DNA of 64,000 bases from Pseudomonadota bacterium. GTDB lineage: Bacteria > Pseudomonadota > Alphaproteobacteria > Caulobacterales > Caulobacteraceae. A program made the position numbers and the translations under genes. Under the pieces are notes generated by a model. The model was given only the letters and a program-made list of their open reading frames with translations, was not told where the DNA came from and did not search any database. This document shows, one piece after another, positions 1,813-16,994 of the stretch. The stretch is taken from the NCBI GenBank assembly GCA_021808285.1, contig JAKBBV010000008.1, positions 1 to 64,000 on the forward strand. Direction: 5' to 3'. The first letter of the stretch is position 1; every line of letters begins with the position of its first letter.

Positions 1813-3107
1813 GCCCTCCCACGTCCGCCCCCCATCGCATCACGCCGCGCCAGGTCGCCGCCGCTGTCGCCGGCAATGCTCTCGAGTTCTACGACTTCAC
1901 GGTCTACGCCACTTTCGCCAGCCAGATTGGCGCCGCCTTCTTCCCCGCGAAGACGCCTTTCGTCAGCCTCATTCTGACCCTGGCTACATTTGGCGTGGGA
2001 TTTCTGCTCCGGCCGATGGGGGCCGTTATCATTGGCCGATTTGCCGACCGGCGCGGTCGGCGCGAAGCGATGATGTTGAGCTTCGCCATTATGGGGGTTT
2101 CGATCTTGGGCCTCGCCTTGACCCCTACCTATGCCCAGATCGGACCCGTCGCGCCGCTTCTGGTCCTGGTCTGGCGGCTCGGACAGGGCTTTGGGCTTGG
2201 CGGCGAGGTGGGCTCGACGACGGCCTTTCTGGTGGAGGCGGCGCCCATCGAGGCGCGGGGACTCTATGCGGCATGGCAGGGCGGGAGCCAGAATATCGCC
2301 AATTTGGTGGGCGCGGGTGTGGGTCTTCTCTTTACCACCTTCGCTGGCGCGGCGGCGCTGGAGGCGTGGGGCTGGCGAACCGCATTTCTGCTGGGCGCCC
2401 TGGCGCTGCCCTTCGGCCTACTTCTACGCCAAGCCCTGCCGGAGACCCTGCATCATCGCGAGGCGCCCACAAAATCCCAACCCCAGGCGACAACCTTGCG
2501 CGCCGGCGCGCCGGTTCTGGCCAAGGGCCTTGCTCTCGTCGCCTCCTCGACCGTCTCCACCTACGTTTTCGCCTATCTGACCACATACGCCATCAAGACG
2601 CTCCATATCCCGACAATAGCGGCACTAGGGGCGACGGCTGTGAGCGGGACATGCGGGCTTGTCGGAGGCCTCGCGGGAGGGGTCCTGGCCGACCGACTGG
2701 GCCGCCGAACGATGATGATCTGGCCGAGGCTCGTGTTTCTGCTGGCGACATGGCCGGTGTTCTGGGTGATCGTCGACAGGCACGATGCCCCAAGCCTGCT
2801 CATCGGCACAGCCATCCTGACCTTCTCCAGCGCCCTTTCGACCTCGGCGGTATTCGTAGGTCTGGCCGAGTCCCTGCGTAAGGAAGTAAGGGTAGTGGGC
2901 CTTGGGACGGTCTATGCCCTTGCCGTGGCGGTCTTCGGCGGCACGACCCAGCCGATCATCGCCACCTTGGTGCATGTGACGGGCGATCCGCTTTCGGTGG
3001 CCTGGTACACCGTTGCTGCGACCCTGATCGGTCTGATCGCCTCTTTGACGATGCAAGAGACCCTGCCCAGACCTGAGACCATAGAGGCGGTCATTCCCAC
3101 CGTCTGA
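1809..3107 (+). CDS. MFS transporter, metabolite:H+ symporter type
   Basis: About 432 residues with around 12 hydrophobic segments. The N-terminus ITPRQVAAAVAGNALEFYDFTVYATFA matches the metabolite:H+ symporter branch of the major facilitator superfamily (citrate/proline/dicarboxylate permeases). The loop 2-3 signature is GRFADRRGRREAM and the matching second-half loop is GVLADRLGRRTMM. RLGQGFGLGGEVG in TM4-5 is also typical. The likely substrate is an organic acid or betaine-like solute, but it cannot be read from sequence. The start is the GTG overlapping the preceding stop; the ORF-track start at 1491 lies in the previous gene in another frame. The 3' end overlaps the convergent KAS gene by 17 bases. 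Confidence 0.9.
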   Translation: MSPPTSAPHRITPRQVAAAVAGNALEFYDFTVYATFASQIGAAFFPAKTPFVSLILTLATFGVGFLLRPMGAVIIGRFADRRGRREAMMLSFAIMGVSILGLALTPTYAQIGPVAPLLVLVWRLGQGFGLGGEVGSTTAFLVEAAPIEARGLYAAWQGGSQNIANLVGAGVGLLFTTFAGAAALEAWGWRTAFLLGALALPFGLLLRQALPETLHHREAPTKSQPQATTLRAGAPVLAKGLALVASSTVSTYVFAYLTTYAIKTLHIPTIAALGATAVSGTCGLVGGLAGGVLADRLGRRTMMIWPRLVFLLATWPVFWVIVDRHDAPSLLIGTAILTFSSALSTSAVFVGLAESLRKEVRVVGLGTVYALAVAVFGGTTQPIIATLVHVTGDPLSVAWYTVAATLIGLIASLTMQETLPRPETIEAVIPTV

Positions 3108-4326
3108 AGGCTAGGCTCGCGTTAAGGCCGCCGAAGGCGAAGGCGTTGACGAGGGCGGCCTCGGCGAAAATGTCTCGAGGCTCGCCCAGAACCAGATCCA
3201 GATCGCATTCCGGATCGCGGCCGAGATGATTGAGGATCGGCGGCGCCTTGCCTGATCGCAGGGCTTCTAGGGCCAACACGGCTTGGAGCGCGGCGGTGGC
3301 CCCGATGAGATGACCGTGGGCGCTCTTGGTGGCGATGATCGGCGTGTCAACGACAGCATCGCCCAGAACGGCGTGAAGCGCGGCCGCTTCGTTCCTGTCA
3401 TTGAGCAGCGTTCCGGTGCCATGGGTCGAGACCAGTAGCCGGGCTTTGGGACCTAGGTCGGCGGCGGCTAACGCAGCGGTCATGGCAGAGACTGCGCCCT
3501 CGAGGCTGGGCTGGGTCCAGTGGAAGGCATCAGAGGAAAGCCCGACGCCGGCGCACTCCGCCAGGATCGCCGCTCCGCGCGCCCTCGCGTGCTCGAGCTC
3601 CTCGAGGACGAGCACCGCCCCGCCCTCGCCGATGGCCATGCCATCGCGGCCGGCGGAAAATGGCCGGCAGGCCGTCGGGCTCATGGCCTGAAGACCGTCC
3701 CAGGCCTTCAGGCAGCCAGGCGTGGCGATCGCTTCGCTGCCGCCAACCACGGCAAGGTCACAGGCACCTGTGGCGATGAAGCCCGCGCCTTGGGCGATGG
3801 CGTGGCCCGATGAGGCGCAGGCGCTAGACACTGCGAACACCGGACCGCGGATACCGAAAGACATCGCCACTGCGCTGGCCGGGGCGCTGACCATCACCTT
3901 GGGAACCGTTAGCGGATGCATGCGCGCCGACTTGCGTCCGAAATAACGCAAATAGCTCGCTTCAAGCGTGTGGATACCGGCGAAGCCGTGGCCGAGCACC
4001 AGGGCTGTTCGCCTCTCCAGCGCGGCGTGCCCGATCAAGCCGGCCTGGGCCAGGGCCTCTTGCGCCGAAGCCAGGGCGAAGAGGGCGAAGGGGTCGAGCG
4101 AAGCCCCGATGCGGCGCCCCAGCGCCGTCTCGAGGGGCGCCACCAAATCTCCCTCCACCAAAGCAGCGGGCATCTCGTAGGCTTCAGGCCCCTCCGGTCC
4201 CGGATCGAAGCTGCGCCTCCGTATCGCCCCCTCGCCAGCCAGGGCGGCGGCGAAATTGGCTTTGACATCAGCGCCAAGGCCCGAGACCGCCCCAAGTCCC
4301 GTGACCACGATCCGACGGCGGACCAT
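3091..4326 (-). CDS. Beta-ketoacyl-ACP synthase (FabF-like), distal gene of the sphingolipid locus
   Basis: Decarboxylative Claisen condensation of an acyl chain with malonyl-ACP in the cytosol. The 411-residue length is normal for KAS II. The full catalytic set is visible: the nucleophilic Cys in SSACASSGHA, His in HGTGTLLND, and Lys/His in KSAHGHLIGA. The N-terminus RRIVVTGLGAVSGLG is the usual KAS start. It begins 4 bases after a private ACP and lies at the far end of the ceramide gene block. This suggests it makes or extends a particular acyl chain for this lipid rather than serving bulk fatty acid synthesis (inference). It is not recognisably a type II polyketide chain-length factor, since the Cys is present. 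Confidence 0.9.
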   Translation of the reverse strand: MVRRRIVVTGLGAVSGLGADVKANFAAALAGEGAIRRRSFDPGPEGPEAYEMPAALVEGDLVAPLETALGRRIGASLDPFALFALASAQEALAQAGLIGHAALERRTALVLGHGFAGIHTLEASYLRYFGRKSARMHPLTVPKVMVSAPASAVAMSFGIRGPVFAVSSACASSGHAIAQGAGFIATGACDLAVVGGSEAIATPGCLKAWDGLQAMSPTACRPFSAGRDGMAIGEGGAVLVLEELEHARARGAAILAECAGVGLSSDAFHWTQPSLEGAVSAMTAALAAADLGPKARLLVSTHGTGTLLNDRNEAAALHAVLGDAVVDTPIIATKSAHGHLIGATAALQAVLALEALRSGKAPPILNHLGRDPECDLDLVLGEPRDIFAEAALVNAFAFGGLNASLAFRRWE

Positions 4327-4330
4327 CAGG

Positions 4331-4579
4331 TCAGGCGGCCTTTCCGGTCGCGATGACGTCCTCGATGCTGGCGAGAAAGCCTTCCAGATCGGTCACATCG
4401 CGCAACGCATCCTCAGCGATCTCGATGCCGTATCTCTCCTCAACGGCGAAAACGACGCTGACAACACCGACCGAGTCCAGGCCCACATCCGTGAGGGTCG
4501 CCTGAGGCGTCAGCTTGGCGCGATCCACCAGCGCCTCATCGGCGATGAGATCCAGGAGTTCGTCGCGCAAGGCCGTCAT
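4331..4579 (-). CDS. Acyl carrier protein (partner of the adjacent KAS)
   Basis: An 82-residue acidic carrier protein that presents acyl chains on a phosphopantetheine arm. The attachment Ser is in DVGLDSVGVVSVVFAVEERYG (about residue 36), matching the D-S-L/V motif of helix 2. EERYGIEIAEDALRDVTDLEGF is the usual helix 2-loop-helix 3 tract. It is 4 bases upstream of the KAS gene and 86 bases downstream of the VWA gene. It is a second ACP in the same locus, distinct from the one beside serine palmitoyltransferase, so each probably serves a different enzyme. Confidence 0.9.
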   Translation of the reverse strand: MTALRDELLDLIADEALVDRAKLTPQATLTDVGLDSVGVVSVVFAVEERYGIEIAEDALRDVTDLEGFLASIEDVIATGKAA

Positions 4580-4665: not shown

Positions 4666-6048
4666 CTACCTCGGAAGATATTTTCTCAATACGTCCTCAA
4701 TGATGCGCTCCAACGACTCCAGCGTGTTGCAGGTGCGGGCCACAGTGCAGAATCGGCCATAGGCGTCCATCTTCGAGTCCCCCTGGCCCCAATAGGTCTG
4801 AGGCTCCGGATTGAGCCAGATCACCGATCGCGCGCGATCGGCGATCGCCCGAAGGATATCCAGTCGCGGCTCCGCGTAGTTGGTTCGGCCGTCGCCAAGG
4901 ATGATCAGGGTGGTCCGCCGATCGATCTTGGCCCCATGCAACTCGAATACATCGGCGAAGGCGCGCCCATAGTCAGTGGAGCGAAAGCCCACCCGGTCGA
5001 GAATCAGGGCGATGGCGTCGTCCACGGACTCCTCGCGCAGGACATCACTTACGGCAACGGCGTGATCGGAAAAGGCGAAGGCGTCGAGACGCTCCACCAC
5101 CTCATTCAGACAATGGAGGAACAGCAGCAGGAACTGAGCAGCCTGGGCTACCGAGCGCGACACGTCGCACATCACCGCAATTTTGGGCTTCTCCACAGCC
5201 CTGGTGCGCCAGACGATCTCAAAAGGTATGCCGCCATAGCCCAGGCTGCGCCGCAGGGTATGGCGCACATCCAAGCGGCCCAGTCGCGCCCGACGTCGCC
5301 GCCGGGCATATTTTGAGGCCAGCTTGCGGGCCATTCGCCGCACCAGAGTCTCCATGGCCCTGATGTCCTCGGGCTCTACGGCCGTCAGGGCCTTGCGCGC
5401 CAGGACCTGCTCTCGCATCCGGCGGGCGGACTGGGCGGCGAACAGTCCCGCCTGGCGCTCAATGAAGGCGCCGGCGCGGGCGAAGAGGCGTTCACGCTGT
5501 CCGGCCAACGACTCAGCCTGGATCCGATCGGCGAGGCTTTCGGAGCCTCGTCCGGCGGCGATGCGCGCCTCCAAGGACCGCAAGCCCAAGTCGTCGAGCA
5601 GGCGCCGTGTCATCAGACTCCGTTGGCTCTGCAGCCGAATCTCGCCGGCGCCGATGCGCGCGGCGGAAGCTTCCATGGCTGCCGCCAAAGCAGCCTCGTC
5701 GCCAGCCTCCAGACTTGCCTCAAGGTCGAAGGCGGCGCTTGGGCCACCCATCTCGTCCCGACCCGCCTCCTGCGGGGGGCCATGCGCCAAGTCGAAAGCA
5801 TCGCGCGCATAGTAGAGATCGAAACAGGTCTCGAAGCGCTCTACCTCCTCGGCCGACTTGGCCAGAGTCACGCAAAAGGCGTCGCGCAGCAGCGTACGGC
5901 TGGAGAAACCGATTTGGGCGAGGGCGCGATGGGCGTCGATCGCCTCCGCTGGCGAGACCGCGACATCGTGGGCGCGCAGGGCCCTGAGGAAGCCCTCCAG
6001 TCCGTCCTGCATGGGGGTCGCCATCCCACCAGAAGCTGGATCCGGCAA
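4666..6048 (-). CDS. VWA domain protein, CoxE-like, partner of the MoxR ATPase
   Basis: A 460-residue cytosolic protein. The first 270 residues are helical and Arg/Glu-rich. The C-terminal third is a von Willebrand A domain with the metal-ion-dependent adhesion site: DVSRS (DxSxS), STDYGRAF (Thr) and LGDGRTN (Asp). This architecture is that of CoxE/DUF58-neighbour VWA proteins that act with MoxR AAA+ ATPases in chaperone-like cofactor insertion or complex remodelling (family knowledge). It follows the MoxR gene after 3 bases, so the two are a classic pair. Its client is not known; embedding in a sphingolipid operon suggests a client there (inference). An internal ATG at residue 9 is an alternative start. 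Confidence 0.88.
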   Translation of the reverse strand: MPDPASGGMATPMQDGLEGFLRALRAHDVAVSPAEAIDAHRALAQIGFSSRTLLRDAFCVTLAKSAEEVERFETCFDLYYARDAFDLAHGPPQEAGRDEMGGPSAAFDLEASLEAGDEAALAAAMEASAARIGAGEIRLQSQRSLMTRRLLDDLGLRSLEARIAAGRGSESLADRIQAESLAGQRERLFARAGAFIERQAGLFAAQSARRMREQVLARKALTAVEPEDIRAMETLVRRMARKLASKYARRRRRARLGRLDVRHTLRRSLGYGGIPFEIVWRTRAVEKPKIAVMCDVSRSVAQAAQFLLLFLHCLNEVVERLDAFAFSDHAVAVSDVLREESVDDAIALILDRVGFRSTDYGRAFADVFELHGAKIDRRTTLIILGDGRTNYAEPRLDILRAIADRARSVIWLNPEPQTYWGQGDSKMDAYGRFCTVARTCNTLESLERIIEDVLRKYLPR

Positions 6049-6051
6049 GGC

Positions 6052-7017
6052 TCAGGCCCCAGAGGTCAGAAGGTCGCCGATCTGCGGCTCGACAGCGGCG
6101 ATGTCGGCCTCGAACTTGAGAAGGACGTTGAGCGTATCCCGCACGACCACCGCGTCCAGCGCCTGGACGTGCAGCAGAATCAGGGCTCGGGCCCAGTCCA
6201 CGGTCTCGGAGATTGATGGGAGCTTGCGCAGGTCTCGGCTCCGCAGTTCCTGAACGAAGGACACTAACTGGCGCCGCAGCGCCGCCTCAACCTCAGGCAC
6301 GCGCGTCGCAACAATGCGCTCCTCCAGCGCCTGGTCAGGCAGCGGAATGTGAAGGTGCAGACAACGTCGCTTGAGGGCGTCGCCCAGATCCCGGACATTG
6401 TTGGAGGTGAGGAAGACCACGGGCGGCGTTTTGGCCCGAATCACGCCCAGTTCCGGAATCGATACCTGAAACGCCGACAGCGTCTCCAGCAGGAAGGCCT
6501 CGAAGGCCTCATCGCTCTTGTCGATCTCGTCGATCAGCAGGACCGCCCCGCCCGGCTGACGCAGCGCCGTGAGCAGCGGACGCGGCTCAAGAAACGGTTC
6601 GGAAAAAAACAGATCGCCAGCGCCATGCAGCCCCTCCATTGCGGCGCCGAGGTCCGGCGCGTCGGCCAGGGCTCGGCCCATATGGTCTTTGAGAATCTGG
6701 GTGTAGAGGAGCTGTTTGCCGTACTTCCACTCGTATAGCGCCTTGGACTCGTCCAGGCCCTCGTAGCACTGCATGCGGATGAGCGGCAGGCCCAGGAGGC
6801 CTGCGGAGGCGATCGCCAGCTCAGTCTTGCCCACGCCAGCCGGGCCCTCAACCAGGATTGGCTTACCCAGGTTCAGGGCCATGAATAGGGCCGTGGCGAT
6901 CCGCCGTGAGGCGATATAGCCCACACCGGCCAGACCCGCGATCAGACTTTCGACACTATCACGCGCTTCGCCGGCCGCCAGTACGGCGGGATCCAGGGTG
7001 CTGTCTTCGGGCGCCAT
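6052..7017 (-). CDS. MoxR-family AAA+ ATPase
   Basis: A 321-residue AAA+ ATPase of the MoxR family. Walker A is EGPAGVGKTELA (about residue 57), Walker B is AVLLIDEIDKSD, sensor 1 is VVFLTSNNVRD, and the arginine finger lies in ALKRRCLH. MoxR proteins form hexamers that remodel client proteins together with a VWA partner. Here the partner gene (CoxE-like) follows immediately. The pair sits 68 bases downstream of the ceramide-synthase-like acyltransferase, on the same strand and with no obvious promoter or terminator between. It is probably cotranscribed with the lipid genes. The client is unknown. Confidence 0.92.
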   Translation of the reverse strand: MAPEDSTLDPAVLAAGEARDSVESLIAGLAGVGYIASRRIATALFMALNLGKPILVEGPAGVGKTELAIASAGLLGLPLIRMQCYEGLDESKALYEWKYGKQLLYTQILKDHMGRALADAPDLGAAMEGLHGAGDLFFSEPFLEPRPLLTALRQPGGAVLLIDEIDKSDEAFEAFLLETLSAFQVSIPELGVIRAKTPPVVFLTSNNVRDLGDALKRRCLHLHIPLPDQALEERIVATRVPEVEAALRRQLVSFVQELRSRDLRKLPSISETVDWARALILLHVQALDAVVVRDTLNVLLKFEADIAAVEPQIGDLLTSGA

Positions 7018-7085: not shown

Positions 7086-8213
7086 TCAGCCCAACTCTTT
7101 GCGATAGATTCGGTAGGTCTTGTAGATGCGGGCGTCGAGGCCCTCGAGAATGTGCCGCATGGCGTGGTTGTCCTCGAGAATCCAGGAATACTCCGCCTGG
7201 CGCAGGCCTCGTTTTACCGCCTCGCGACGGACGGCATCGCTCAGGAAGAACGGCGCCATCATACCGCGACGATCCCGGGCGAACTTCTTGCGCACGCCCA
7301 TCAACGGCACCCGGGCGCGGCTCGGCCCCTTGACCTTAAGCCGCCACAATAGCTTGGCCCAGCCGAATGGCAGGATCTTGCCGTTCAGGTCATGGATAGC
7401 CTCGTTGATGTCCGGCAGCATGACGATGAAGCCAGCCGGCTCGCCATCGATCTCATAGAACCAGATCCAGTCCGGGATCAGGATCAGTTTCAGCGATTCG
7501 CCCAGATGCTTGGTCTCGGCCTCCGTCAGGGAGAGCCCCCCCCAGTTCTCAGACCAGGCGTCATTGACGATGTCAGCGAGGATTTTCACCTCTTCATCGA
7601 ACCGGTTCATCCGTACCCGGCGGAGAGCCGCACCGGCTGGCAAACCCCGGGCGAGGCGCCGCTCAACGCCTTCGCTGAAGCGGAAATTATGGGCGTTGAT
7701 ATAGGCGTAGACGTCCTTGGCCTTGGCGTAACCCAACTCCTGCAGGCGGCGCTCGGTCCAGCGCGGATCATGTCCCATCATCACCATCGGCGGGGTGTCG
7801 AACCCCTCGACCAGCAGACCCACCTCCTCGCTGGTGGCGAGGTTGAACGGCCCCATGGCGGCCTTGAACCCTCTCTGGCGCAGCCAGTCCTCCGCCACCT
7901 GGAACAAGGCCGCAAATACCTCGGGGTCGTCCTCAGCCGCGATCATGCCGAAATAGCCAGCGTCGGGATCAGTCTTGGCCAGATGATCCACCTGAGCGCT
8001 GATGCGGCCGACATCACGCCCATCCTTCCGCGCCAGCCAGAACTGATAGTCGGCGTGCTGAAAGAACGGATTGACCTTCGGCGAAAGCGCCTCACGGCGC
8101 TCGAACATCAAAGGGGCGATGTAGTTGGGCTCCCGGGCCATGAGCCGCATCGGAACCCGGATAAACCGCTCAAGTTCGGCCTTGGTGGAGACAGGAACAA
8201 TGTCGACGGCCAT
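7086..8213 (-). CDS. bcerS: GNAT-fold acyltransferase, likely bacterial ceramide synthase
   Basis: A 375-residue soluble protein with a duplicated GNAT-like architecture. The N-terminal half has YQFWLARKDGRDVGRISAQVD and GFKAAMGPFNLATSEEVGLLVEG; the C-terminal half has WIWFYEIDGEPAGFIVMLPD and RGLRQAEYSWILEDNHAMRHILEGL. This family is found beside serine palmitoyltransferase in Caulobacter-type loci. There the bacterial ceramide synthase (bCerS) transfers an acyl chain to 3-ketosphinganine to give oxidised ceramide. Location directly downstream of the LptFG fusion (5-base gap) and two genes from SPT supports this role. The assignment rests on recalled family resemblance and context, not a search; another N-acyltransferase is possible. 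Confidence 0.8.
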   Translation of the reverse strand: MAVDIVPVSTKAELERFIRVPMRLMAREPNYIAPLMFERREALSPKVNPFFQHADYQFWLARKDGRDVGRISAQVDHLAKTDPDAGYFGMIAAEDDPEVFAALFQVAEDWLRQRGFKAAMGPFNLATSEEVGLLVEGFDTPPMVMMGHDPRWTERRLQELGYAKAKDVYAYINAHNFRFSEGVERRLARGLPAGAALRRVRMNRFDEEVKILADIVNDAWSENWGGLSLTEAETKHLGESLKLILIPDWIWFYEIDGEPAGFIVMLPDINEAIHDLNGKILPFGWAKLLWRLKVKGPSRARVPLMGVRKKFARDRRGMMAPFFLSDAVRREAVKRGLRQAEYSWILEDNHAMRHILEGLDARIYKTYRIYRKELG

Positions 8214-8218
8214 GCGGG

Positions 8219-10528
8219 CTACCCTTCGGCGTAGAGGAGGAGACTGGCGGCGCCGGCCGCAAAAGCAATAGGAGCGCCCCAGGCGGCGACACCCGGCGGC
8301 ACCACCCCGGTGGAGCCCATGGAAGTGAGCACGCCGTCGACCACGAGATAGAGAAGGCCGCAGCCAAGCGCGAAGATGATCGGTCCGGTGCGATTGCTCC
8401 GGGCATGTCCCAGCGCCGTGGGAAGGGCGAGCAGCAGCATGATCAGCGGCGCCATCCCCTCTGCCAGGGTGCGGTAGAGCTTGGTCTCGAATTCGCTTGG
8501 GGGCTTGTCGATGGCCCCCTTGCCGAACAGCGAGCGCAGCGCCGTCCAGGACGTAATCTCATATCCGGTTGAGAACGGATTGGCGGCGTTAAAGAGGCGC
8601 GATACGTCACCTGGACGCAGCGTCGTTCGCCAGTCCGCCGCGGCCACGGCGATGGCCGTTGCGCGCACCGCACCGACATCGGTGATGAGGGCATCGTGGA
8701 GGATCCAGCCCTTTCCCGTCCAGTCCGCCTCCTCTGCCCGGACGCGCCGCTCAAGACTGTGCTGAGCGTCGCGATCATAGATGGTCAGCCCCCGCAGCCG
8801 GCGTCCGTCAGCGCTCGCCGCCGTCGCCTTGACGATATCATCGTCGATCCGAAACCAGCGCGGCGCCCCCGGATCTGGACGCGCACCTGGCGTGGTCGCC
8901 TTCCACCATGTGGCCAGCGCCTGCTCGGCGCGGGGGGCGATCTGGTCGGTCACCGCCATGTCGAGCGCCGCGACAGCGAGGGCCACGGGCAAGGTTCGCC
9001 GAAAGATCTCGAAGAGGGACAGCCCCGAGATCCGCATCACCACGAGTTCACTGTTACGGGCCAACTGGCTGAACGTGAAGACCGCTCCCGCCAGGACCGC
9101 GAACGGCGCCACCTCCTGCACCATGGAGGGCGTCCGAAGGAGCATGTAGCGACCGATATCGAGGAGGCCCCCGCGCTGAAGAATCTGACTGGTCTCGCCC
9201 AGCAGGTCGATCAGTTGAAGCAATGCGATGAGCGCGATCCCGGCGCCCAGCGTCCGCACCGCCATCATCCGGGTGAGGTAGGCGGAAAGGCTCAAGGGAC
9301 CCTTCAAATTCACGGTCGTCACAGCCCTGGGACGGCGCTCCATCAGGGTCTCGATACGACGCAGCAGGCCGGAGATCGGGGTATCCCCCGGTCGGGTTCG
9401 GCTCGAAAGAAAGAGCCAAAAAGCGAGAACCGTAATGCTCAGAAATGCGAGGCCGATCGAGACGAAGGGGTTGATCGCCCCCTCGTCGGAGAAGCTTTTG
9501 GCCAGGGTGACGCTGTGGTGGTAGGCCACCAGAATAATGGCTCCAACGATCATCCCCGCGGTGCGATTGCCGCGCTTGGACGCCATCGCGAGCGGGAGGG
9601 CGATGAGCGGGAGGAGCGGGATCGCCAACGACCTCGCCAACCGCGCGCAGAGCTCAGCCTCGAGCACCCGGCGGGGGATCAGCGCATCGGGCCGCTGAGC
9701 CTCATCGATGAGCTCAGGAAATGTCAGCTCCTGCTCGTTGCCGCCGCGTGGTCGGAGCGTGGCGCCTCCCTTGATCAGTTCCCGGTCCGTGAGATTGCCA
9801 AAACGCAGTAACTTCGGCGCTGCATCGCCCTGTTCGGATAAGATGAGGCCACCGCGAAGTCGCAGCTCGGTGGTCTTGCGATCGGGAGCCATTCCGAGGG
9901 CGCCCTCCGAGGCGGTAACCACCTGTTCGCCTTCACCGTCCTTGCGGCTGATGAAAACCCCGCTCAATTGACGACCCGTAGCGTCCACTTCGTCGGCGGA
10001 TATCGTGAACTGGGGGCCGGCATTGATGAAGACCTGCGGATCGAGACGCGCGGTCCATCCCGCCTCCGTGGCTGCATTGAGGACGGCGCGATATCCGAAC
10101 CGGCTGTAAGGCTGCAAATAGCCCATGAGCAGGAGGTTGCCGACACCCAGAACGAGGCCGGCGAAAACCAGGGGCGCGAGAAGGCGATCGAACGATACGC
10201 CGCCCGCCAGACAGGCATCGATCTGGCTTTCCTCGTCCAGGCGCCCGATGACCATGAACATGGCCACGAAATAGGCGGCGGGCAGCGCCAGGCCCAGCTG
10301 ATAGGGAATCATATTGCCCACCAGCCCAACCAGATAGCTCATGTGGGCGCCGTTGGCGGCCAGCTGATCAATCAGCCTGAGCGTCTGCTCCAGCAAAAAC
10401 GCCACCAGGGTCACGCCAAGCACGGCCAGAGCCGGCAAGGTCAGCATCCGCAGGATGTAGCGGTCGAGTATAGAGGGACGCCAGGGGGGCCGAGGCGCCG
10501 CCGCGGCGCTAAGCGCCAGGGAGGTCAC
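8219..10528 (-). CDS. Fused LptF-LptG permease, putative (sphingo)lipid exporter
   Basis: A 769-residue protein made of two consecutive LptF/LptG (YjgP/YjgQ) permease units. Unit 1 (about residues 15-375) starts SILDRYILRMLTLPALAVLGVTL, has a large periplasmic beta-jellyroll segment and ends in three hydrophobic spans. Unit 2 (about 410-769) starts SLSAYLTRMMAVRTLGAGIALIALLQLIDLL and repeats the plan. In canonical systems LptF and LptG are separate proteins that, with LptB2, extract LPS from the inner membrane. Here both are one polypeptide. It is 6 bases after serine palmitoyltransferase and 5 before the acyltransferase. Export of a sphingolipid rather than LPS is the obvious inference. No LptB ATPase is adjacent. 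Confidence 0.88.
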   Translation of the reverse strand: MTSLALSAAAAPRPPWRPSILDRYILRMLTLPALAVLGVTLVAFLLEQTLRLIDQLAANGAHMSYLVGLVGNMIPYQLGLALPAAYFVAMFMVIGRLDEESQIDACLAGGVSFDRLLAPLVFAGLVLGVGNLLLMGYLQPYSRFGYRAVLNAATEAGWTARLDPQVFINAGPQFTISADEVDATGRQLSGVFISRKDGEGEQVVTASEGALGMAPDRKTTELRLRGGLILSEQGDAAPKLLRFGNLTDRELIKGGATLRPRGGNEQELTFPELIDEAQRPDALIPRRVLEAELCARLARSLAIPLLPLIALPLAMASKRGNRTAGMIVGAIILVAYHHSVTLAKSFSDEGAINPFVSIGLAFLSITVLAFWLFLSSRTRPGDTPISGLLRRIETLMERRPRAVTTVNLKGPLSLSAYLTRMMAVRTLGAGIALIALLQLIDLLGETSQILQRGGLLDIGRYMLLRTPSMVQEVAPFAVLAGAVFTFSQLARNSELVVMRISGLSLFEIFRRTLPVALAVAALDMAVTDQIAPRAEQALATWWKATTPGARPDPGAPRWFRIDDDIVKATAASADGRRLRGLTIYDRDAQHSLERRVRAEEADWTGKGWILHDALITDVGAVRATAIAVAAADWRTTLRPGDVSRLFNAANPFSTGYEITSWTALRSLFGKGAIDKPPSEFETKLYRTLAEGMAPLIMLLLALPTALGHARSNRTGPIIFALGCGLLYLVVDGVLTSMGSTGVVPPGVAAWGAPIAFAAGAASLLLYAEG

Positions 10529-10534
10529 GAGAGT

Positions 10535-11758
10535 CTAGACCGCCCCTGCAATGCGGCGACGGCCCGACGGCAGGAAGCCCAAGGTACGGCCGACCTCGGC
10601 GAAAACGCTCAAGACGGTGTCAATTTGCGCCAGGGTGTGAGCGGCGCTGACGCTGCTGCGCAGAAGTCTCACATTGGTTGGGGTCGCCGGGGGTAGAGCC
10701 AGATTGAGATAGACCCCTCCCTCAAGCAGGAGCTTCCAAAACATCACTGCCGTTTCCTGATCAGGCATGGCGACCGCGACGATGGGATTGGCCTCCGGGC
10801 CGACCTCGAAGCCCATGGCCTTGAGCCCATCATAAAGCCGGTGTGCATTGCGCATGAGCGTCTCACGCAAGGACGGCTCCGCCTGAAGTTTCTCCAATGC
10901 CGCCAAGGTCGAGGCGACAATGCCAGGCGGCAGGGATGCGGTGAACATGTAGGGGCGCGACACGATGCGCATGATGTCGAAATCGGGTGTGTCGGACACA
11001 CAGAAGCCGCCGACGCTGCCCAGACTCTTGGAGAACGTCCCGACGATGAAGTCGACATCCGCCTCGACGTCCGCCGCCTCGGCCAGCCCCCTGCCGGTCT
11101 CGCCTAGAACGCCCATGGAATGGGCCTCGTCCACCAGGAGGTAGGCGCCGGTCTCGCGCTTCACCGCCGCGATCTCCTTGAGCGGCGCCGTGTCGCCCAG
11201 CATAGAATAGATCCCCTCCACGACGATCAACCGATCGCCGGGCGCGCCTTCGAGGCGTCTGAGCCGCTTGTAGAGGTCGTCTGGATTGTTGTGACGGAAC
11301 CTGATCACTTCTGCGTGACCAAGGCGCGAGCCGTCGTATATGCTGGCGTGACTATCGGCATCGAGCATCAGGTGGTCGCCGCGTCCCACAAGAGTCGACA
11401 GTACGCCGAGATTAGCCTGATAGCCGGTGCTGAAGACCATGGCGTTCTGTCGCCCGAAGAACTTGGCCAGAGCCTCTTCAAGCCGCTTGTGGCCGCCATA
11501 GGTTCCATTGGCGACCCGTGAGCCCGTGGTTCCGGTGCCTTGGCCTCGGGTCGCCTCGATGGCGCGATCGACACAGTCTGGGTCGAACGTCAGACCCAGA
11601 TAGTTGTTCGTGCCAAGCAGAATCATTGCCTGACCGCCTATCACACCCTCTGTGGGCGAGGTGACGGCGTCGAATCGGACGTTCAGAGGGTCCACGCCAC
11701 TGGCGCGAAGTTGGTCATAGGCCTGCTTATAGGCCCCGTGCTTGGCGAGGATGGTCAT
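10535..11758 (-). CDS. spt: Serine palmitoyltransferase
   Basis: PLP-dependent alpha-oxoamine synthase condensing L-serine with a long acyl thioester to give 3-ketosphinganine, the committed step of sphingolipid synthesis. The 407-residue protein shows GTNNYLGL near the N-terminus, the acyl-binding GTGTTGSRVANGTYGGHKRLE tract, DADSHASIYDG, VDEAHSMGVLGETGRG, and the PLP-lysine loop GTFSKSLGSVGG (about residue 245). It overlaps the upstream ACP by four bases (ATGA), so the two are translationally coupled, and ACP is the likely acyl donor. Related enzymes (KBL, BioF, HemA) share the fold, but the flanking ceramide genes decide the call. Confidence 0.93.
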   Translation of the reverse strand: MTILAKHGAYKQAYDQLRASGVDPLNVRFDAVTSPTEGVIGGQAMILLGTNNYLGLTFDPDCVDRAIEATRGQGTGTTGSRVANGTYGGHKRLEEALAKFFGRQNAMVFSTGYQANLGVLSTLVGRGDHLMLDADSHASIYDGSRLGHAEVIRFRHNNPDDLYKRLRRLEGAPGDRLIVVEGIYSMLGDTAPLKEIAAVKRETGAYLLVDEAHSMGVLGETGRGLAEAADVEADVDFIVGTFSKSLGSVGGFCVSDTPDFDIMRIVSRPYMFTASLPPGIVASTLAALEKLQAEPSLRETLMRNAHRLYDGLKAMGFEVGPEANPIVAVAMPDQETAVMFWKLLLEGGVYLNLALPPATPTNVRLLRSSVSAAHTLAQIDTVLSVFAEVGRTLGFLPSGRRRIAGAV

Positions 11759-12051
11759 GCGACGCGCCCAGACCGAAGGGCTTCGACAGCGGCGATAAGG
11801 TCAGCCACGGTCTGGATCTGTGCGATCCGGTCGAGCGGAATCGAAATGTCGTAGAAATCTTCGATGGCCATGACGAAATTCATCACCCCAAGTGAGTCCA
11901 TGCCCAAATCCTCCACGATGTCGGTATCGTCCCGGATAGATACGGGGCGACCCAGAACCTCCTCGAAGATCGTGGAGATTTCGTTTCGGATGGCGGCATT
12001 GGCGTCAGCGTCGGTGCCGCCGACCACAGCCAGTTGCAAATTCTGCCGCAT
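11755..12051 (-). CDS. acpR: Acyl carrier protein coupled to serine palmitoyltransferase
   Basis: A 98-residue carrier protein with the phosphopantetheine Ser in EDLGMDSLGVMNFVMAIEDFYDISIP (about residue 54). An N-terminal extension of some 15 residues (MRQNLQLAVVGGTDADANA) precedes the normal ACP start. The stop overlaps the SPT start (ATGA). In Caulobacter-type loci an ACP beside SPT is needed for ceramide synthesis and presumably delivers the acyl group; that role is inferred here. It is the first gene after the promoter at 12100-12126. Confidence 0.9.
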   Translation of the reverse strand: MRQNLQLAVVGGTDADANAAIRNEISTIFEEVLGRPVSIRDDTDIVEDLGMDSLGVMNFVMAIEDFYDISIPLDRIAQIQTVADLIAAVEALRSGRVA

Positions 12052-12286: not shown

Positions 12287-13222
12287 TCAGAGCCATCCCT
12301 TGAGACGGTACCATGCCGCGGTTTCCGTAAAGCCCTGATCCAGCGAACGACCCATCGGCCCGGATCGCCAAGGCGCCATCTCAGAGGGGGAAACCGCCCA
12401 ATCGGGATGGGTGAGTTCTCGCGCCTTGCCCGCGCCAAAAATGGCTGGCCGGCCGGTCAGTCGGGACGCCAGGTCCGCGATCCCCCCCGCCGCGTGGATC
12501 AGGCTGACGGGCAAGGGCATCAGGGGCGCATTTCGATTGAACGCGCTGCGAGCCGTCCGCCAGATCTCCCGCCAGCCATAACCCTGGGGCCTGTGTCCCC
12601 CCAAGGCGAAGCGGCCATCCTCGTCTCGCCGCGCCGCCTCAGCGATCTCCGCGGCCACATCGTCAACGTGAGCCAGGGCGAGGCGCGTCGTCGGCGCACC
12701 GGGGTAGGGCAGGATTGGCGCGTGGGCGGCGAGTTGGAACAATCCAAGCGTCGCGCGATCGCCCGGCCCGTAGACGGCGGGGGGTCGAATTATGGTCAAG
12801 GACCCTCCCAGAACCTCCCGTGCGGCGAGCTCGCCCGCGTGCTTGCTGAAGGCATAGGAAGAGAGTTGCGGCTGGCGGGCAGCCAGGCTGGAGACGAGAA
12901 CGAATCTCGCCCCGACGGCCTTAGCCGCCCGCGCGGCCGCTGCGGCGCCCGCCTCGTTCACGGCTAGAAATCCGGCACGGTCACGGGCCATGATCGCTCC
13001 CGCCAAATGCACGAAGACCTGAGCGCCGGCGGCGAGGCGGGCCAGGGCCCCAGCATCGGCGAGGTCGCCGAGAACCCATTCCAGGTCATCCTTGCGCGCC
13101 TCACCCTCAATCGGCGGACGGCGCGCCAGAGCTCTCAGGCTCCAACCCTGCGCAAGAAGATGCGGAGCGAGCCGTTGCCCCAGAAACCCCGTCGCACCCG
13201 TAAGGGCTATGAGGCCGGCCAT
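12287..13222 (-). CDS. cerR: NAD(P)-dependent epimerase/reductase, likely ceramide reductase
   Basis: A 311-residue extended short-chain dehydrogenase. The nucleotide-binding Gly motif is TGATGFLG at residues 8-15, DL follows beta-3 (WVLGDLAD), and the active-site pair is S/Y-x3-K in LSSYAFSKHAG. In Caulobacter-type ceramide synthesis the CerR enzyme reduces the 3-keto group after N-acylation. The gene lies between the acyl-AMP ligase (21-base gap) and acpR, the position expected of cerR. A nucleotide-sugar epimerase is the alternative from fold alone, but no sugar genes are near. Confidence 0.82.
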   Translation of the reverse strand: MAGLIALTGATGFLGQRLAPHLLAQGWSLRALARRPPIEGEARKDDLEWVLGDLADAGALARLAAGAQVFVHLAGAIMARDRAGFLAVNEAGAAAAARAAKAVGARFVLVSSLAARQPQLSSYAFSKHAGELAAREVLGGSLTIIRPPAVYGPGDRATLGLFQLAAHAPILPYPGAPTTRLALAHVDDVAAEIAEAARRDEDGRFALGGHRPQGYGWREIWRTARSAFNRNAPLMPLPVSLIHAAGGIADLASRLTGRPAIFGAGKARELTHPDWAVSPSEMAPWRSGPMGRSLDQGFTETAAWYRLKGWL

Positions 13223-13243: not shown

Positions 13244-14974
13244 TCAGGCCTGGACGCGCTCAGTGGCCGGGGCGAAAGCGCCCGACATAAAGAGGGCGCG
13301 CGCCCGCGATCGACTCAGTTTGCCGGAGGACGTCTGGGGCAGGCTGTGAGGAGGAGCCAGAACCACCTGAATCTCCAACCCATGGCGGGCGCGTAGGAGG
13401 CCGGCGACCTCTTTTTCCAGAGACATCCGGGCCGAAGCCTCCCGAGTCCGACACTGGACCAGGGCCACAACCCGCTCATCACTACCCCCCTCGGCGTAAG
13501 AGAACACCGCCACGTCTCCCGATCGAAGCCCCTCGATTTCGCGCTCCGCAGTCCATTCCAAATCCTGCGGCCAGACGTTGCGGCCATTGACGATGATCAG
13601 GTCCTTGGCGCGACCTGTGATCACGATCTCGCCATCCAGGAGGTAGCCCAGATCGCCGGTATCCAGCCACCCATCGGCGGAAAGGGTTCTGGCGGTTTCG
13701 TCGGGCGCACCGAAATAGGCCTTCATCAAGCTCGGGCCGCGCGCGAAGATTCGGCCGACCTGCCGCTCGCCCAGGACGCGACCGGCCAGGTCGCGCACCT
13801 CAAGCTCATGATCCTTTAGAGGTCGACCGCAGAGGGCGAACTCGCGCTGTCGCCGGCCCTCGCCCAAAGGATGAGCTGCCACGGCCTCGGCTTCGAGACG
13901 GTCCATATCCGCCACGTCCGTGCGCAGCCCCTTCCCCACCGGGGTGAGTGACAGGGCCAGGGTCGCTTCAGCCATGCCGTAGCTCGCGGTGAAGGCCGCC
14001 GCGTTGAAGCCCGCCGGCGCATAGGCGTCAGCGAATGACCGCAGCGGTTCAGGGCGGATCATGTCACCGCCGAGCCCCGCCACACGCCAGGACGAAAGGT
14101 CGAGCTCTGTTAGGTTCGCGGCTCCCGCCCGCCGCGCGGCGAGGTCGAAGCCGAAGGTGGGTGCGTAGGAAATCGTTCCCTTGCGCTGTGAAATGAGGTC
14201 GAGCCACAGCAGGGGCCGACGAACGAAGGCGCCTGTGGGAAGGAGATCGACCGAGACCTGGAAGCCAACGCTGCAAAGGAGCATCCCGACCAGACCCATA
14301 TCGTGATAGAGCGGCAGCCAGCTTACGGTCCGGTCGGTGGCGGCGACCCCGAGCCCCGGACCGCCGATCGCATAGACATTGGCCATGAGCGCGGCTTGGG
14401 TGACGGCGACGCCCATGGGGAACCGGGTGCTTCCAGACGAGAACTGCAGATAACAAAGCCCCTGCGGGTCTGGCCGAGGGAGCGGCCCAGCGCCGGCGCG
14501 GGGCAGATCGTCCAGACGCCCACAGATCGCGAGATCGAGACCGTTGGCGGCTTCGTTGAACCAGTCCGCGAGCGCACCGGGCGCCAAGGCCGCCCGCGCC
14601 TCGGCCGAGACGAGCATACGCCTTACATGTTCGAGATAGGCGTCTTTGCCGCCGAAAGGCGCCGGCAGTGGGGTCGGCGCGGGAACGAGGCCAGCAAATT
14701 GGCAGGCGAAAAAAGCGCGCAGGAAATCACCGTCGCTTTCCGCAGCCAACATGACCCGGTCGCCCGGCTCTAAGCCAGTCGCTAGAAGGCGCCCCGCGAG
14801 GTCCAGCGCCTGATCGCGAAGGTCCCGATAGGGCAGGACTTCAATGAGCTCTCCCTTGAGGGAATGCACATTGATCCCAGTGCTCTGAAGCGCCGCGTAG
14901 TCGAGGGCCTCGGCAAGAGTCGCGAAATCGCCTTTGCGGACGGAGCGTCCGGGCGCGGTCGGTGTCGGAGTCAA
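13244..14974 (-). CDS. Fatty acyl-AMP ligase / acyl-CoA synthetase of the sphingolipid locus
   Basis: A 576-residue ANL-superfamily adenylating enzyme. Motifs in order: YLQFSSGSTRFPMGV (phosphate-binding loop), WLPLYHDMGLVGMLL (typical of the FAAL branch), TASYGMAEATLAL, the GWLDTGDLGYLLDGEIVITGRAKDLIIVNGRNVWPQDLEW hinge, and a C-terminal SSGKLSRSRAR lysine. FAALs pass acyl-adenylates to carrier proteins, so it could charge the ACP beside SPT (inference); acyl-CoA formation is the alternative. It is the first gene of the minus-strand block and is divergent from the ABC exporter with 178 bases between. Confidence 0.88.
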   Translation of the reverse strand: MTPTPTAPGRSVRKGDFATLAEALDYAALQSTGINVHSLKGELIEVLPYRDLRDQALDLAGRLLATGLEPGDRVMLAAESDGDFLRAFFACQFAGLVPAPTPLPAPFGGKDAYLEHVRRMLVSAEARAALAPGALADWFNEAANGLDLAICGRLDDLPRAGAGPLPRPDPQGLCYLQFSSGSTRFPMGVAVTQAALMANVYAIGGPGLGVAATDRTVSWLPLYHDMGLVGMLLCSVGFQVSVDLLPTGAFVRRPLLWLDLISQRKGTISYAPTFGFDLAARRAGAANLTELDLSSWRVAGLGGDMIRPEPLRSFADAYAPAGFNAAAFTASYGMAEATLALSLTPVGKGLRTDVADMDRLEAEAVAAHPLGEGRRQREFALCGRPLKDHELEVRDLAGRVLGERQVGRIFARGPSLMKAYFGAPDETARTLSADGWLDTGDLGYLLDGEIVITGRAKDLIIVNGRNVWPQDLEWTAEREIEGLRSGDVAVFSYAEGGSDERVVALVQCRTREASARMSLEKEVAGLLRARHGLEIQVVLAPPHSLPQTSSGKLSRSRARALFMSGAFAPATERVQA

Positions 14975-15152: not shown

Positions 15153-16994
15153 ATGAACGACACCTCCACCGCCGGCCCAGACCGACCCAGTCTCGGAGCC
15201 CTGATGAAGGAGGAACTCCTTCACGACGCGCTCAAGCACCCTCCAGCTGGCGACCTGCAGCCTCTCACCCGCCTCGCGCCTTTCGTGGGAGCTCACCCCG
15301 TGGACGCCATCCTTGGGATGGTCTTCCTCACGCTGTCCTCGGCCTCCGCCCTCGCCATGACCGATGGCGTCCGACGGGTGATCGACGGCGGCTTCACCCA
15401 CCGCACCGAAGGCGAACTCGTCCAGCTCTTCATGACCGCCGGCGTGATCGCCGTCGTCCTGGCCCTGTCGACCGGAATGAGGATGTACTTCCTCTACAAG
15501 CTGGGAGAGCGGGTCGTCGTCGACCTTCGCAAGGTCGTGTTCCGGCGCGTACTCGGCCTCGACCTGGCGCATTTCCAGAAGCTCAAGACGGGAGAGATCC
15601 TGTCCCGCCTGACCACCGACATGACGATGGTCGAGGGCATCGTCGGGACCGTGGCGCCGGTGGCGCTGCGCAATCTCATGACGCTGGTGGGCGCACTGGG
15701 ATGGATGCTGATCGTCAGTCCCAATTTCACCGGCCTGGTCCTGGCCCTGATTCCCTTTCTGCTCACGCCGCTGTTCCTCATGGGCCGGCGCCTGCAGCGC
15801 CTTTCCCTGCGCGCTCAGGATCGCTTCGCCGAGGCCGTGGGGTATGCCGGGGAGGGCCTGGGAGCGGTCGATACGGTTCAGGCCTTCGGACAGGAGGACG
15901 CCGTCGCCGCGCGTTTCAACCGCTCGGTGGAAAGCGCCTTCGAAGCCTCCCGGGCACAGCTCAAGGCGCGCGGTCTACTGTCCGCCCTGATGATCACCCT
16001 GATCTTTGGCGGCATGATCGCGCTCCTGTTCCAGTCGACGGTGGCCGTTGTGCATCACCGGCTGTCGCCAGGGCGCCTCGTCCAGCTCCTGGCCCTTGCC
16101 TTCTTCGCCGCCAACGCCGTGCGTGATCTTTCCGATGTCTGGGGGCAGATCCAGAAGGCGTCGGGCGCTGCGGCGCGGGTTATCGAGATGCTGGATGCCC
16201 GTCCGACCATCGCCGCGCCCGCCAAAGCCACCCCGTTGCCGCGACCCGCTTTGGGGGAGGTGGATTTCGACAGGGTGCGTTTTGCCTATCCCGGACGTCG
16301 GGGACCGCCGGCGCTGGATGAATTCGATCTGCACGTCCGTCCAGGAGAACGGGTGGCGTTGGTGGGGCCATCCGGCGCCGGCAAGAGCACTGTTCTCCGC
16401 CTACTGCTGCGTTTCTACGATCCGGAACGGGGCGCCGTGCGTCTGGACGGGGTCGATCTGAGAGAGGCGGACCCCTCAGAGGTGCGTGAGCGCTTGGCTC
16501 TCGTTGCTCAGGATGCGCCGCTGTTCTCCGGTTCGGCGAATGACAATATTCGATTTGGCTCGCCAGAGGCGAGCTTGAGCGAGATCCGCGCGGCGGCGCT
16601 GGCGGCCCAGGCGGATGGTTTTCTCAAGGCCCTGCCGCAAGGCTACGAGACCCTTGTGGGAGAGCATGCCAAGACCCTTTCAGGTGGGCAAAAGCAGCGG
16701 CTCGCGATCGCCAGAGCGCTGCTGCGGGACTCGCCGGTCCTGCTGCTGGATGAGGCCACCAGCGCCCTCGACGCAGAGAGTGAGCGGCTGGTCCAGCAGG
16801 CTTTGCATGAAGCCATGCGCAATCGCACCACTCTGGTCATCGCCCACCGACTCGCGACCGTTCTTGAAGCCGACCGCATCGTGGTTATGGAGCGCGGACG
16901 CGTCGTCGAGGAGGGCGCCCATGGCCAGCTGCTGGCAAAGGGGGGCTTGTATGCCCGGCTAGCCAAGTTGCAATTCACGGCTCAGACCGCGTAA
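15153..16994 (+). CDS. MsbA-like ABC exporter (fused membrane and ATPase domains)
   Basis: A 613-residue half-transporter that would work as a homodimer in the inner membrane. The N-terminal transmembrane domain (about 35-335) has six hydrophobic spans. The nucleotide-binding domain carries Walker A GPSGAGKST, Q-loop VAQDAPLFSGSANDNIRFG, signature LSGGQKQR, Walker B VLLLDEATSALD and H-loop VIAHRLAT. This is the lipid A flippase/MsbA type (ABCB). Divergence from the acyl-AMP ligase makes inner-membrane flipping of the sphingolipid or lipid A plausible (inference). The M28 peptidase gene follows after 24 bases. Confidence 0.9.
   Translation: MNDTSTAGPDRPSLGALMKEELLHDALKHPPAGDLQPLTRLAPFVGAHPVDAILGMVFLTLSSASALAMTDGVRRVIDGGFTHRTEGELVQLFMTAGVIAVVLALSTGMRMYFLYKLGERVVVDLRKVVFRRVLGLDLAHFQKLKTGEILSRLTTDMTMVEGIVGTVAPVALRNLMTLVGALGWMLIVSPNFTGLVLALIPFLLTPLFLMGRRLQRLSLRAQDRFAEAVGYAGEGLGAVDTVQAFGQEDAVAARFNRSVESAFEASRAQLKARGLLSALMITLIFGGMIALLFQSTVAVVHHRLSPGRLVQLLALAFFAANAVRDLSDVWGQIQKASGAAARVIEMLDARPTIAAPAKATPLPRPALGEVDFDRVRFAYPGRRGPPALDEFDLHVRPGERVALVGPSGAGKSTVLRLLLRFYDPERGAVRLDGVDLREADPSEVRERLALVAQDAPLFSGSANDNIRFGSPEASLSEIRAAALAAQADGFLKALPQGYETLVGEHAKTLSGGQKQRLAIARALLRDSPVLLLDEATSALDAESERLVQQALHEAMRNRTTLVIAHRLATVLEADRIVVMERGRVVEEGAHGQLLAKGGLYARLAKLQFTAQTA

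Follow-up and report, generated by a model that had tools for sequence, protein, structure and literature searches.

A MoxR/VWA gene pair beside the ceramide cluster in one genus of uncultured Caulobacteraceae: a possible, unproven link to lipid synthesis

A ceramide cluster in the analysed stretch of DNA, 64,000 nucleotides in length and referred to here as the window, has at its downstream end a complete gene pair that encodes a CoxE-type VWA protein and a MoxR-type AAA+ ATPase. In the genus to which the window genome belongs, the pair lies beside the ceramide-synthase-like gene (bCerS), in the same order, wherever both were found (12 of 12 genomes). One possibility is that the pair was co-opted for the activation or assembly of an enzyme of lipid synthesis, either bCerS or the adjoining ACP2/KAS, that is a metal-free client, in a lineage that apparently lost its molybdenum enzymes; we give this reading a probability of roughly one in four. 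The link between the pair and lipids is confined to one genus and is unproven. The genes concerned are the following.

3091-4326, minus strand: FabF-like ketoacyl synthase (KAS; PF00109/PF02801, FabF-type NCBIfam matches)
4331-4579, minus strand: second acyl carrier protein (ACP2; PF00550)
4666-6048, minus strand: CoxE-type VWA partner, 460 aa from TTG, intact MIDAS
6052-7017, minus strand: MoxR-type AAA+ ATPase, 321 aa, NorQ/CbbQ/CoxD-like
7086-8213, minus strand: bCerS, ceramide-synthase-like, 375 aa, named by position
8219-10528, minus strand: LptF-LptG fusion (LptFG), 769 aa, PF03739 in two stretches
10535-11758, minus strand: serine palmitoyltransferase (SPT; NF047599, 674.8 bits vs a cut-off of 500)
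11755-12051, minus strand: AcpR-like acyl carrier protein (PF00550)
12287-13222, minus strand: CerR-like NAD-dependent reductase (PF01370)
13244-14974, minus strand: AasR-like fatty acyl-AMP ligase (PF00501; NF006624, 814 bits vs 600)
15153-16994, plus strand: ABC-transporter-like gene, 613 aa, divergent from AasR

The first-pass annotation had described a complete MoxR ATPase and a VWA protein with intact MIDAS residues, and the open reading frames, the Pfam matches and the invariant motifs all confirm this description. The matches of the MoxR protein to the Pfam families AAA_5 and AAA exceed the cut-off, and an alignment of 22 orthologues showed its AAA+ core to be conserved throughout, including Walker A (GPAGVGKT, residues 58-65) and Walker B (LLIDE, residues 160-164). 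The partner scores 127 bits with VWA_CoxE (PF05762; cut-off 26.4), and its MIDAS residues D295, S297, S299, T358 and D386 are invariant in the 22 orthologues. Its start is probably not the TTG at 6048 but the ATG at 6012 or 6024, since an ATG at 6012 (or 6024), yielding proteins of 448-452 aa, is common to the orthologues. The adjacency of the two genes reported before thus stands, whereas the reported gap of 3 bases rests on the TTG start and becomes 39 bases from the ATG at 6012 or 27 bases from the ATG at 6024. The same MoxR-VWA gene order recurs in dozens of other genomes, from which we conclude that the pairing is not due to chance. In the bog_900 MAG, the MoxR gene is split into two open reading frames of 132 and 163 aa (L169:7605-8478, the same region as L069), reflecting either a frameshift or an assembly error.

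Metal insertion or the activation of large enzymes is the usual explanation for MoxR/VWA pairs: NorQ/NorD inserts FeB into cNOR, CoxD/CoxE acts in the maturation of CO dehydrogenase and CbbQ/CbbO is a Rubisco activase. An AlphaFold model of the MoxR protein (mean pLDDT 74) retrieved NorQ, CbbQ and NorQ-NorD complexes as top structural matches, with NorQ in first and CbbQ in second place. The model of the VWA protein (mean pLDDT 79, pTM 0.47) combines an N-terminal half of helices with a VWA domain, and the best structural matches of the latter include the midasin MIDAS and the NorD VWA domain; a sequence search of the PDB using the VWA profile gave no significant match. The likeness to NorQ/NorD, another AAA+ protein with a VWA partner, is structural; the sequence similarity is very remote. 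Neither a nitric oxide reductase gene nor a Rubisco gene is present among the cluster genes. The nearest NCBIfam models are MadB for the MoxR protein (305 bits) and MadC for the VWA protein (190 bits), yet both scores are far below the equivalog cut-offs of 475 and 600, respectively, and our literature search found no paper on MadB/MadC as an AAA+/VWA pair. By analogy to these systems, the two genes most likely encode a complete AAA+/VWA pair of the NorQD/CbbQO/CoxDE kind with a predicted remodelling activity.

Domain matches and open reading frames likewise bear out that the pair lies between the ceramide-synthase-like gene and the ACP/KAS genes, all on one strand, and, as claimed before, no metalloenzyme is evident among the cluster genes. 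The gaps between bCerS and MoxR and between VWA and ACP2 measure 68 and 86 bases, respectively. Both halves of the LptFG fusion scored over the cut-off (TIGR04407 at residues 20-374, TIGR04408 at 414-765). bCerS has no Pfam or NCBIfam match; its place after LptF/LptG corresponds to that of cerS (CC_1154) after CC_1156/CC_1155 in Caulobacter crescentus, and homologues with 57-61% identity occupy the same place in Caulobacter-type clusters. The C. crescentus cluster (CC_1168-CC_1152) comprises AasR, CerR, AcpR, SPT, LptF, LptG and CerS (PMC11324152), all of which have counterparts in the window. It differs in that LptF and LptG are separate, no MoxR/VWA pair is named in the publication and ceramide-phosphoglycerate genes, which are missing from the window cluster, lie in between (PMC11324152). 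Promoter and terminator scans returned sites no more frequently than in shuffled sequences.

Further differences between the clusters were observed. A fused LptF-LptG protein is encoded in this genus and also in G008 (genus g9), whereas Phenylobacterium and Caulobacter-type clusters have two separate genes. The genes found in the spt-lptF2 interval of Caulobacter-type clusters are missing from the window (about 10529-10534). The ABC-transporter-like gene upstream of AasR, possibly a lipid flippase, is kept at the same place in G055, G063, G070, G085 and G101. Second bCerS-like genes off the main cluster are found in L158 (G095:C187) and L168 (G102:C347), with 69% and 43% identity, respectively, to the bCerS of the window.

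We compared the 16 genomes of the genus, which consists of uncultured Caulobacteraceae MAGs including the palsa_881, bog_900 and Kiruna2 bins; the window genome (G000; 2.9 Mb, 97.75% complete) harbors one MoxR/VWA pair. The 12 genomes with the pair beside bCerS are G000, G021, G034, G046, G063, G070, G076, G085, G095, G099, G100 and G103, and in G090 and G102 the cluster is cut by contig ends. In the remaining two, G055 (100% complete) and G101 (85% complete), AasR, AcpR, SPT, LptFG and bCerS were found and no pair was detected genome-wide; ACP2 and KAS still come after bCerS in G101 despite the missing pair. Since these two relatives do without it, the pair is an accessory and not a requirement, and no cluster component depends strictly on the pair, because each of them occurs without it. 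The cluster of G055, G101 and G095 (L147, L163 and L038) lacks CerR. A coupling of CerR loss to pair loss was rejected, since G095 has the pair without a cluster CerR and G008 has CerR and no pair.

bCerS is always the ceramide gene closest to the pair in this genus, and the other side of the pair is more variable, with ACP2/KAS, a TonB receptor or others. In G046, G063, G076, G095 and G100, however, bCerS and MoxR are separated by one or several genes, of which at least one is encoded on the other strand, from which we conclude that a single bCerS-MoxR transcript is not general. In G100 and G101, the gene inserted next to bCerS is encoded on the other strand and resembles C92 permuted papain-like amidases, with a score below the Pfam cut-off (L165:9755-10366 and L163:2945-3574, respectively). 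The lipid-unrelated flank beyond the pair (MFS, c30) is also kept nearby in G021, G070, G063 and G034, and in G021 a leuB-like flanking gene is syntenic as well. Because lipid-unrelated genes are syntenic too, adjacency is weak evidence of function, and shared synteny accounts for part of the constant position beside bCerS.

Among 99 genomes of the family, close orthologues of the pair are restricted to three genera, namely this one, Phenylobacterium (g7) and g20. The MoxR orthologues of the latter two are 75-81% identical and are located in catabolic loci, mostly in genomes without bCerS, where the pairs adjoin either aldehyde dehydrogenase and saccharopine dehydrogenase-like genes or a P450 and a 361-aa protein that belongs to no Pfam family; a molybdenum hydroxylase or a biotin-dependent carboxylase is often nearby. 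bCerS is present in three Phenylobacterium genomes, on contigs other than that of the pair, and in none of g20. Conversely, genera g9, g11, g14, g19 and g22 have bCerS without the pair, g22 representing the Caulobacter-type clusters. The link to the ceramide genes, which the first-pass annotation would have regarded as chance if relatives had the pair without sphingolipid genes, is therefore kept within the genus and fails outside it, where pairs without sphingolipid genes and Caulobacter-type clusters without a pair speak against a general link with spt. A role of the pair as a general part of bacterial ceramide synthesis was accordingly rejected, as there is no co-occurrence with bCerS across genera. 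Acyl-CoA dehydrogenase and SDR genes adjoin a paralogue that is more distantly related (MoxR about 62%, VWA about 40%).

In a tree of the concatenated pair, the nine sampled sphingolipid-linked pairs form one clade (SH-aLRT 99), and the branching among this clade, Phenylobacterium and g20 is left without resolution. A saccharopine dehydrogenase-like gene was found in 14 of the 16 genomes of the genus, including that of the window (65%, contig C101). In the six loci that were read, it is followed by the aldehyde dehydrogenase gene and not by the pair, the contig of G076 ending soon after; the window genome thus keeps the Phenylobacterium-type locus without the pair (L170:583-3235). Since this locus persists without the pair, we conclude that the pair changed neighbours within the family. 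It would have been inherited vertically in the Caulobacteraceae and would have reached the downstream end of the ceramide cluster at the base of the genus. At the one variable MIDAS position, all nine sphingolipid-linked proteins compared have R, 14 proteins of the Phenylobacterium group have K and three of g20 have G, a pattern that fits a change of client but follows the phylogeny and may be drift.

These distributions bear on the possibility that the pair came to lie at the ceramide cluster by happenstance, that its client is encoded elsewhere, e.g. an acyl-CoA dehydrogenase or another oxidoreductase, and that synteny preserves the neighbourhood. The occurrence of orthologues in several unrelated contexts, the syntenic lipid-unrelated flank and the ceramide clusters without a pair are all consistent with such a client, as is the fact that in several Alphaproteobacteria, and in the paralogous group as well, the pair is immediately preceded by acyl-CoA dehydrogenase genes. 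It is less easily reconciled with the fact that, within the genus, the pair is never away from bCerS where both were found, and that the gene content on its other side is less constant. Taken together, we give a client elsewhere somewhat less than an even chance.

The pair shares the VWA_CoxE domain and the adjacency of the AAA+ and VWA genes with CoxD/CoxE. A further possibility is that it acts in trans in the maturation of a molybdenum hydroxylase, comparable to the role of CoxDE for CO dehydrogenase. Phenylobacterium orthologues have a MoCoBD-type hydroxylase encoded within a few kb, such a gene being present in 28 of 70 non-sphingolipid loci. However, genome profile searches of G000 and its sister G021 found no MoCoBD_2 protein (PF20256), MoeA (PF03453) or MoaA (PF06463). 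These are the only two of the 16 genomes of the genus without MoCoBD_2 and MoeA, both being present in the other 14; MoaA was likewise not found in G103 (90% complete). G000 and G021 are each about 98% complete and were assembled separately, and control genomes and relatives gave matches in the same searches, which suggests that this pair of species lost its molybdenum enzymes and the synthesis of the cofactor. The pair is nevertheless intact in both genomes, with dN/dS values between G000 and G021 of 0.13 for MoxR and 0.16 for VWA (other cluster genes: 0.05-0.22), which, as judged from these coding sequences, indicates that it is under purifying selection. Because the pair is intact where molybdenum genes are missing, a molybdoenzyme client is excluded here, barring an assembly loss of all molybdenum genes in both genomes, and we rejected CoxDE-type maturation, for which neither a molybdenum hydroxylase client nor cofactor genes were detected in the window genome; a hydroxylase served in trans appears highly improbable.

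Another candidate is the LptFG fusion, which the first-pass annotation had suggested as a possible client and for which the pair would assemble or regulate a sphingolipid exporter. The fusion is only two genes away, and the closest known case of a lipid role likewise concerns a MoxR/VWA pair, RavA/ViaA, which is membrane-associated, binds anionic phospholipids and affects membrane lipids in E. coli (PMC9489729). The window ATPase differs from RavA in that, with 321 aa and AAA+ matches only, it leaves no room for a LARA domain. Since G055, G101 and, in a neighbouring genus, G008 have this fusion and no pair, and since the constant neighbour is bCerS and not LptFG, we do not favour this suggestion and regard it as unlikely.

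For the recruitment to lipid synthesis, we propose a mechanism modelled on NorQD, in which the VWA partner is rotated and stretched to open the client (PMC13036017). The MoxR protein would form an ATP-driven hexamer on which the VWA protein would dock, gripping the client via the MIDAS site and the helical N-terminal half, and ATP hydrolysis would force the client, by twisting it, into the active state. The pair would thereby activate an acyl-handling enzyme of the cluster, with bCerS as the first and ACP2/KAS as the second candidate. That the client is encoded inside the cluster, in this order of preference, is a tentative assignment to which we grant a little under even odds, both the remodelling mechanism and the client being deduced, and a client elsewhere is about equally likely.

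Our literature search turned up no paper with an apparent link between MoxR and sphingolipids, two papers mentioning both words only in passing. The retention under selection of the pair beside ceramide genes, in a genome without a detectable molybdenum cofactor pathway, implies that it serves another client. If this is not a ceramide enzyme, the case would be a warning that the genes adjoining a MoxR/VWA pair do not name its client, because the same orthologous pair switched its neighbours at least once within one family. If the client is a ceramide enzyme, this class of chaperones would be extended to lipid synthesis, and the pair would represent a new kind of control over bacterial sphingolipid production.
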